Of a stretch of 64,000 bases of DNA, positions 29,524 to 31,169 are shown piece after piece; the stretch's first letter is position 1; every line of letters begins with the position of its first letter. Below the pieces are notes generated by a model, which saw only the letters and a list, made by a program, of their open reading frames with translations, ran no database searches and was not told where the DNA came from. This DNA is from Bacillus sp. CGMCC 1.16541. Its GTDB lineage: Bacteria > Bacillota > Bacilli > Bacillales > Bacillaceae_H. Location: contig NZ_QFRU01000020.1 of NCBI RefSeq assembly GCF_003184905.1, positions 1 through 64,000 on the forward strand, written 5' to 3'. A program made the translations under genes and the position numbers.

Positions 29524-29678
29524 TCTATATCCCATTGTTTTCCGACTAAAAAAAGAAACTTATAGTTCTATAACAATGAGTCTTTAGTCTCTTTTTTATT
29601 TTACAGAAAATATAGAAAATAAAAAGAAGAGCAGCAATAGTAATCATTTTTACTATATAAAGGAGTTTTTTTCTAACT

Positions 29679-30947
29679 ATGCACTTACTGAATGATAACT
29701 TTGAAGTCAATATTGGCACTCTTATCTCTATTACTCGTCAAGGAAAAGAGATGACACAAGAAGAACTTGCAAAAGGCATTTGCTCGATTCCTTACTTAAG
29801 CAAGTTAGAAAACAACCGCATCGAAGCAAATGATGAGATTATTGAATTATTGTTAGAGAGATTAGGCTATGATTATGGCCTAGTCATGAGTGAACAGCAA
29901 CTTCTTAATGACGAGGTGCTAAGATGGTACGAAGCAATGGTCGATCGACGTAATGAGACGGTTCAAAATTACGCTGAAGAATTAGAACTTAAAACGAAAA
30001 GCATCTATAATATGACGCTTTTGAATAACTATCGTCTCGCTCAATTTCGTTATTTTTTATATGAAGAAAAGTTTTCAGAGGCTAGACAACTCATCGAATA
30101 TTTCACAAGAATTAAAAAGAAATTAACCGTTGTTCAATCTTTATATTTTCATATGTTTTTAGGGTTGTATCATTGTTTACTAGGGGATTATGCACAAGGA
30201 TTAGACATGTTTAAAAAGGCGGAACAAATGAGTGAGAAAATTCGCTACAAAGAGCCTGAGCTCTCTTATAACTTAGCCTTAACTCATAGTCACTTACATC
30301 ATCCTTCTTTAGCCATCATTTATGGTTATGAAGCGTTAGAAATGTTAAACTCTGCATCCCTTTTTTTACGAAGTCTAGACTGCCAATTATTAATTGCGAT
30401 TAATTACAAACGCATTAAACAATTTTCACAAGCCAGACAACTCTTTCATAACATTTTATCAACTGCTAAAAAGCTAGACTTAAAGGACATGCAAGCTTTT
30501 TGCTATCATAACCTAGGAAATTTATATAGTGAGCAAAAGGATCACCAAAAAGCGACTACTCATTATGAAGAATCCTTATTCCTTAAAAAACAGTATTCTT
30601 TTTCCTATTTAAAAACCTCTTATTATTTAGCAAAAGAATTAGTGGCACAAAATGATAAAGAACAAGCACTAGAAATAATTCAACAGTCAATGAAACAACT
30701 AAACAATATGCCAGAACTAGAAATAAAGTTTCAGATTCTTGCTCTTGAAGTTGATCGCAATCATGCAGAGCTAGAAAACTATTTAGAAACTGTCGCCCTG
30801 CCATTTTTTGAAGCAAAAGAAGACCTGCACTACTTATTAATCTGTTACGAGCAATTGGCTAATATGCATTCTAACCGCTTTTCATATAAGAAAAGCAGTT
30901 ATTATTATAAACTTTGCAATGACATTAGAAGAAACTTAACAAATTAG
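29679..30947 (+). CDS. RNPP-family (NprR/PlcR-like) transcriptional regulator
   Basis: A 422-residue protein with an N-terminal Xre-type helix-turn-helix (ITRQGKEMTQEELAKGICSI, then SYLSKLENNR-like YLSKLENNRIEAND). The remaining 340 residues are tandem TPR repeats, e.g. SEARQLIEYFTRI, QARQLFHNILSTA, KATTHYEESLFLKKQ. Size and layout match RNPP quorum-sensing regulators (Rap, NprR, PlcR, PrgX), which bind short imported peptides in the TPR groove. A small exported-peptide gene follows 11 bases later in the same direction, the standard NprR-NprX arrangement. The ribosome site is AAAGGAG with the start at ATG 29679. Targets are unknown. Confidence 0.88.
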   Translation: MHLLNDNFEVNIGTLISITRQGKEMTQEELAKGICSIPYLSKLENNRIEANDEIIELLLERLGYDYGLVMSEQQLLNDEVLRWYEAMVDRRNETVQNYAEELELKTKSIYNMTLLNNYRLAQFRYFLYEEKFSEARQLIEYFTRIKKKLTVVQSLYFHMFLGLYHCLLGDYAQGLDMFKKAEQMSEKIRYKEPELSYNLALTHSHLHHPSLAIIYGYEALEMLNSASLFLRSLDCQLLIAINYKRIKQFSQARQLFHNILSTAKKLDLKDMQAFCYHNLGNLYSEQKDHQKATTHYEESLFLKKQYSFSYLKTSYYLAKELVAQNDKEQALEIIQQSMKQLNNMPELEIKFQILALEVDRNHAELENYLETVALPFFEAKEDLHYLLICYEQLANMHSNRFSYKKSSYYYKLCNDIRRNLTN

Positions 30948-30958
30948 GAGGAATTGTT

Positions 30959-31118
30959 ATGAAAAAGTATATTCTTGGCTTTTTTACATTCACACTAGGT
31001 TTCACGTTCACTTCTTGCTGCTTCATTTTTACATTCTACATCTGATGAAGATCATCCTCGCTATCACAATATTATTGATGTAGCATCGGACGAAGACCAC
31101 CCATATTATCATCGTTAA
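30959..31118 (+). pseudogene. Frameshifted prepropeptide (pheromone) of the RNPP regulator
   Basis: The ribosome site AGGAGGAATT precedes ATG 30959. The first frame reads MKKYILGFFTFTLGFTF, a signal peptide, and stops at TGA 31043-31045 after 28 residues. One frame over, from about 31010, the sequence reads LLAASFLHSTSDEDHPRYHN and then IIDVASDEDHPYYHR, ending at TAA 31116-31118. The 160-base span is one base too long; removing one base near 31000-31040 gives a 52-residue exported propeptide. It carries two copies of SDEDHP(R/Y)YH. Either the gene is broken, or the base call is wrong, or frameshifting occurs. Confidence 0.6.
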
Positions 31119-31121
31119 TGT

Positions 31122-31169
31122 AAAAAGTGGCTAGATAAAGCGCATTACCACTCTATCTAGCCACTTTTT
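31122..31169. terminator. Bidirectional terminator between pheromone gene and leuS
   Basis: Sixteen-base perfect arms AAAAAGTGGCTAGATA and TATCTAGCCACTTTTT (31122-31137 and 31154-31169) enclose a 16-base loop. T-runs lie on both strands. Confidence 0.9.

Follow-up and report, generated by a model that had tools for sequence, protein, structure and literature searches.

The window, i.e. the whole stretch of 64,000 nucleotides that was analysed, probably harbours a chromosomal operon next to leuS that comprises an NprR-type receptor and its pheromone, and in which a recent change has put the precursor gene out of frame. Precursors with several copies have been described before in systems of the NprR, Rap, PlcR and AimR types (PMC9765709, PMC11343458); thus, the window adds a further member to a kind of system already on record, with the difference that its precursor is broken. 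In a literature search covering articles without their supplementary files, no listed paper was recognised as dealing with the locus or with a DEDHP-type pheromone.

The receptor gene (positions 29679..30947, forward strand) is an uninterrupted open reading frame that encodes 422 residues, with an N-terminal helix-turn-helix (HTH) domain followed by a TPR superhelix (Pfam HTH_3 and TPR_12). In a phmmer search of the PDB, NprR came first (4gpk, E 4.7e-32; 5dbk, E 1.1e-31; residues 80-417), and the AlphaFold2 model, built from 62 aligned receptors, has a mean pLDDT of 93.7 and retrieved with Foldseek NprR chains at ranks 1-11, followed by Rap, the best match being NprR 5dbk. No family of NCBIfam was matched above its cut-off. 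The receptor thus has both features by which we delimit the NprR subfamily, namely an HTH combined with an NprR/Rap-type TPR superhelix, and NprR as nearest solved relative by sequence. The preliminary description of the locus had left the choice between NprR and PlcR open. PlcR was rejected, as an entry of this name is absent from the 47 PDB sequence matches (E 0.1) and also from the first 50 fold matches listed, i.e. sequence and model both point to an NprR-like rather than a PlcR-like protein.

In NprR from B. thuringiensis D107, Y118, E188 and Y223 are needed for the Rap-like inhibition of sporulation via Spo0F, whereas Y223 and F225 are needed for transcriptional activity, Y223 being reported as necessary for the DNA-binding tetramer as well as for Spo0F (PMC4970707). 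A single offset in residue numbering (59) fits all seven residues used, and on this basis the four Spo0F residues correspond to N, Q, E and S in the window receptor, so that only E188 is kept, while at the tetramer interface F225 is conserved and Y223 is replaced by Ser. In the alignment of 62 receptors D is found in 23 rows (107 column), E in 23 and Y in 34 (223 column), and in the 118 column Y does not rank with the six most frequent letters. The loss of the Spo0F residues would argue against a Rap-like function, not against kinship with NprR, and we expect the window receptor to be a transcription factor without Spo0F activity. Its oligomer interface may differ from that of NprR and, given the Ser in place of Y223, the NprR switch is not simply transferable. 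In comparison with the receptor of Metabacillus iocasae the dN/dS ratio is 0.104, the sixth highest among 28 gene pairs that were picked by hand from 70 rows, suggesting that selection on the receptor is not visibly relaxed.

Downstream of the receptor gene two frames have to be distinguished. An AGGAGG motif resembling a ribosome-binding site (30946..30951, forward strand) overlaps the receptor stop codon, and an ATG follows at 30959, 11 bases past this stop. The frame opened by this ATG (30959..31045, forward strand) translates to MKKYILGFFTFTLGFTFTSCCFIFTFYI and ends at a stop codon (31043-31045) after 28 residues, so that it contains a hydrophobic leader only. Both pheromone copies, SDEDHPRYHN (31041..31070) and SDEDHPYYHR (31086..31115), lie on the same strand in another frame, whose open stretch is bounded by a TAG (30996-30998) and a TAA (31116-31118), and in which no ATG, GTG or TTG start was found over 30999-31118. 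The two copies had been reported correctly, letter for letter, and so had the ATG 11 bases after the regulator gene, but the single secreted peptide assigned to this region joined two frames, since 30959-31118 spans 160 bases, which is no multiple of three. Hence, the two cores are present in the window, though in a frame without a start, and export signal and mature peptide do not share one frame. As the precursor is out of frame, no such pheromone is expected from this gene, i.e. ordinary translation of the sequence as assembled cannot yield the signal.

Chance does not account for the tandem repeat. When all 861 open stretches with a length of 30-120 codons were taken from the six frames of the window, the repeat frame alone showed a self-match of 7 or more out of 8 residues, and shuffling its 39 residues 20,000 times never gave this value. 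Between the two copies 2, 2 and 7 differences fall on codon positions 1, 2 and 3, respectively, a pattern that would fit conservation at the protein level and not a fresh duplication of DNA. In a genome-wide search for a second source of the signal, based on a pattern for the DEDHP motif itself and not for variant cores, only two other DNA sites coding for DEDHP were found, both in open frames (315 and 295 codons) that are not peptide genes. In these two frames of the strain's own genome (L135 and L136) the motif reads DEDHPYGH, which resembles the core DEDHPYYH, probably by chance; judging from their HPYGH motif, they presumably encode cation efflux proteins.

The nearest relative, M. iocasae DSM 104297 of the same genus, has a receptor with 78% identity and, at the same site, an intact precursor of 54 residues with two identical VDEDHPRFH cores, MKKFIIGSVTFTLGFAFASFVSTSFLHSAVDEDHPRFHNVIDVAVDEDHPRFHR. 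Compared to this gene, the window precursor is 5 bases shorter in the part encoding the signal peptide, and the repeats align without a gap. In the repeat half, the window and M. iocasae differ at 6 first, 5 second and 13 third codon positions (dN 0.164, dS 1.51 over 31 codons), i.e. this half retains a coding signature, as would be expected from a recent break. Another two-copy precursor, likewise of 54 residues, is found in Priestia koreensis, where the receptor is 46% identical and the peptide AKGDDLLPPY occurs twice. The system of P. koreensis resembles that of the window in its two copies and in having leuS after the receptor/precursor pair, but its core is KGDDLLPPY and its precursor is intact; as in M. 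iocasae, it is a single open frame. The claim that the window encodes a two-copy pheromone precursor thus held for the kind of gene, exemplified by the two DEDHPxxH-core copies in M. iocasae, and not for the copy in the window, which is out of frame. Within the genus a receptor at E 1e-15 or better is present in 4 of 10 genomes, including that of the window; of the other three, one is interrupted by an internal TAA and another is only remotely related (25% identity). The interrupted receptor (L008/L117; Priestia megaterium CH447_14T, genome G004) has no downstream precursor according to our filter and is perhaps another decayed copy in the genus.

The gene order rhodanese-receptor-precursor-leuS is common to the window and M. 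iocasae. This order was rejected as a general rule, as the coordinates show it elsewhere in M. iocasae only. In P. koreensis (L003/L058, and L004, which is probably from the same species) leuS follows the pair of L003/L058, and no rhodanese gene was found within the flank examined; in Anoxybacillus rupiensis, A. tepidamans and L034 a rhodanese gene separates the pair from leuS, and in L022 both rhodanese gene and leuS are located on the other side of the receptor. Thus, leuS recurs as a neighbour of the pair while the order of the genes varies. An inverted repeat resembling a terminator (31122..31169; arms of 19 nt, 95% complementary, with a T run) was detected by an inverted-repeat search between the precursor gene and the convergent leuS; a scan for consensus terminators omits it, as the loop of 10 exceeds the limit of 8 in that scan. 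Upstream of the receptor, 66 of 70 bases (29552..29621, forward strand; ungapped comparison) are identical in M. iocasae, as compared to pS values of 0.26-0.66 across the 28 window/M. iocasae gene pairs, and this block is possibly a promoter or operator region. With up to 3 mismatches allowed, the central 24 bases of the block have a single occurrence in the genome, so that a search of the genome for a regulon via this block returned its own copy only. In plasmids only distant relatives of the receptor were found (47 records, all below 60% identity). For P. koreensis FS-1 two plasmid-borne NprR-NprX systems have been reported (PMC10075063). Two further NprR-type receptors (L032 and L033), each with a single-copy precursor, lie on contig 2 of a genome (G012) that is probably P. 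koreensis as well.

In order to place the locus within its family, receptor-linked precursors were surveyed in the best 80 of 479 loci from a contig scan with an alignment as query (the receptor sequence alone as query retrieved nothing), in further listed loci and in 60 more stretches. This resulted in 198 loci, 196 of them with a receptor ORF, of which 162 were examined after removal of receptors identical over the last 300 residues (near-copies were retained) and of two receptors cut by contig ends. By our filter a downstream precursor is present at 131 of the 162 loci and absent from 31, although the filter is imperfect and passed over a single-copy precursor in at least one of the 31 (L060). 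Two false precursors (L012 and L088) were dropped by eye, leaving 129, the truncated ORF of the window included: 45 with repeats, 83 with a single copy and that of the window, proportions that describe this branch only, since loci were sampled by similarity to the window receptor. The automatic count gave 2-9 units per multi-copy precursor, with nine in L009 and L042. Contrary to what had been proposed, several copies per precursor are not new, being both on record in the literature and common in this survey, nor is an acidic core that ends in H-P unusual in this branch, since DEHPDP-, EEHPKF- or DEDHPEY-like cores are found in relatives. Relatives that have the regulator and lack a downstream repeat peptide, which the preliminary description had named as evidence against its proposal, are frequent (83 loci with a single copy, 31 with none by the filter); they show that the repeat is not obligatory, not that receptor and peptide were wrongly paired.

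The repeat units share further properties. All 45 repeat units conserve a Pro that has an acidic residue 1-4 positions ahead of it, as compared to 21.5 when the conserved letters were shuffled, whereas a looser test was uninformative for all 131 filtered precursors (120 observed, 110.3 shuffled). An Ala within the three residues before the acidic residue precedes 126 of 190 copies (42.6 in shuffles), and in 55 copies (20.2 in shuffles) this Ala has a small or aliphatic residue two positions before it, counts in which copies inside one precursor are not independent of each other. A small or aliphatic residue at this distance corresponds to the preference of signal peptidase. The putative processing sites are deduced from this Ala; in 11 of the 45 multi-copy precursors no copy is preceded by it. 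On a quick tree of the 162 receptors the label multi-copy needs 18 changes, 16 of them forced by well-supported branches; here the window was labelled multi-copy even though its gene is broken, and the program issued a long-branch warning. Taken together, this suggests that precursors of this branch commonly hold between 2 and 9 units built around an acidic-x-Pro core, in many cases with an Ala in front, and that changes in copy number are frequent. Two deviating loci were seen in the survey. In L030 (G038) the receptor is followed by an ORF of 11 codons, MKKAPILPPVT, with a GGAGG-like ribosome site, which may be a leaderless form of the signal; the precursors of its nearest receptors (L181, L184 and L193) end in GMPPI(L/Q)PP(A/V) after a full leader. 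In L194 (G016) two DxDYPL-like motifs (NDADYPL and NDVDYPL) lie 3' of the receptor in one short frame with no obvious signal peptide.

The relation to characterized systems is closest for NprR-NprX from the Bacillus cereus group (PMC4970707; PDB 4gpk, 5dbk), with which the window system shares the HTH and TPR architecture, the position of the precursor gene directly downstream of the receptor and a Pro in the core (SSKPDIVG in NprX). It differs in the receptor, which retains one of the four Spo0F residues and F225 but not Y223 of the tetramer, in the acidic and His-rich core, in the two copies found in its relatives and in the precursor gene being out of frame. Several copies of the mature peptide per precursor are a feature shared with the multi-copy NprR precursors described by Felipe-Ruiz et al. 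(2022, PMC9765709), who found repeats in 17 of 17 atypically long NprR precursors and reported up to six copies per precursor for AimR, NprR, PlcR and Rap. In contrast, up to nine units were counted here, and some of the two-copy precursors are of ordinary length (54 residues), so that they probably escape a screen for atypically long ones. The word Priestia does not appear in the main text of that study, and neither nine units nor a recurrent gain and loss of copies within this branch was found in those parts of the literature that were searched. Finally, Phr105 from phage phi105 also has two copies, with the short spacer LKLA, whose last residue is Ala, in front of the second ERPVGT, and its maturation by secreted proteases was shown experimentally (PMC11343458); its receptor, however, is a Rap protein without HTH, and its precursor is intact.

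The frame break is known from a single genome of the species and may therefore be specific to this strain. Were it an error of sequencing or assembly, the gene would be intact in the living strain and two peptides, one DEDHPRYH-like and one DEDHPYYH-like, would be released. The coding signature retained by the repeat half, the differences between the window copies mainly at third positions and the intact precursors of relatives would all agree with such an error, but we consider it unlikely, since the difference to M. iocasae is a block of 5 bases and not a one-base slip, and since nearly all other ORFs that were compared are open. When ORFs of at least 50 codons from M. iocasae were compared with the window after removal of shadow ORFs, 67 were matched (about 53 kb) and 61 were full-length, i.e. 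at least 85%, and open. Among the six exceptions, one is the precursor itself (k60) and one runs off the edge of the window (k20). The other four, which have a stop upstream of the apparent start (k56), a frame change upstream of the likely start with its ribosome site (k49), a frame change in 50 codons of the leuS leader region (k58) and a match over 22 residues of a 61-codon ORF (k87), were judged to be non-coding differences, leaving the precursor as the sole broken gene. In addition, completeness and contamination of the genome are rated at 99.74% and 0.11%, respectively. A real loss is thus favoured by the size of the gap and by the ORF control, and the precursor is likely to have been inactivated recently.

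By homology, the intact system would work as follows. The precursor of 54 residues would be exported via its signal peptide, secreted proteases would free both DEDHPxxH units, probably by cutting at the spacer-terminal Ala, and the short peptides would be re-imported by an oligopeptide permease and bind to the TPR groove of the receptor, which would switch its DNA binding and, thereby, the genes under its control. Export, cleavage, re-import and TPR binding are modelled on NprX and Phr105 and are the most likely course; peptide import is plausible as the genome encodes five peptide-binding proteins of the SBP_bac_5 family. In the window strain, where the signal-peptide part of the precursor gene falls short by 5 bases, translation would end after 28 residues and yield no copy of the pheromone, so that the receptor would be unliganded or would respond only to peptide from other cells. 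The latter option leads to a more specific reading, compatible with a recent loss of the frame and refining it: the strain may have dropped its own two-copy signal recently, while its receptor was kept under selection and reads the DEDHPxxH peptides of neighbours, e.g. of M. iocasae-like bacteria. For Rap, AimR and PrgX of this superfamily it has been suggested that receptors lacking a precursor act as 'eavesdroppers' (PMC9765709), and the intact receptor with its dN/dS ratio of 0.104 fits such a role. However, when the loss is recent, ongoing selection on the receptor cannot be read from a pairwise dN/dS, import of or response to the peptides by this strain is hypothetical, and a decaying system, for which the same-genus receptor with the internal TAA provides an example, would look alike, so that we regard this reading as a speculative one with a rather low probability.

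Programmed frameshifting that fuses the leader frame with the repeat frame is very improbable, because, even though both halves resemble the M. iocasae gene and the two frames overlap without a stop over 30999-31042, the gene is a single open frame in M. iocasae and P. koreensis and the required direction of the shift is rare in bacteria, the survey being silent on this point as its filter lists open frames only.

Returning to the reading that we prefer, a precursor gene that has recently lost its frame, the chief interest of the system lies in the possible receptor-only 'listener'. If the break is real, M. iocasae should both speak and listen and the window strain could only listen, with the same locus and a nearly identical upstream block, and this pair of strains would allow a direct test of eavesdropping receptors with synthetic peptides. 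If, in addition, the receptor does read the peptides of its neighbours, the window strain would represent a cheater or eavesdropper caught soon after the loss of its signal, in a family that repeatedly gains and loses pheromone copies. The frequent change in copy number also makes this branch of NprR-type systems tractable for asking what the extra copies do.
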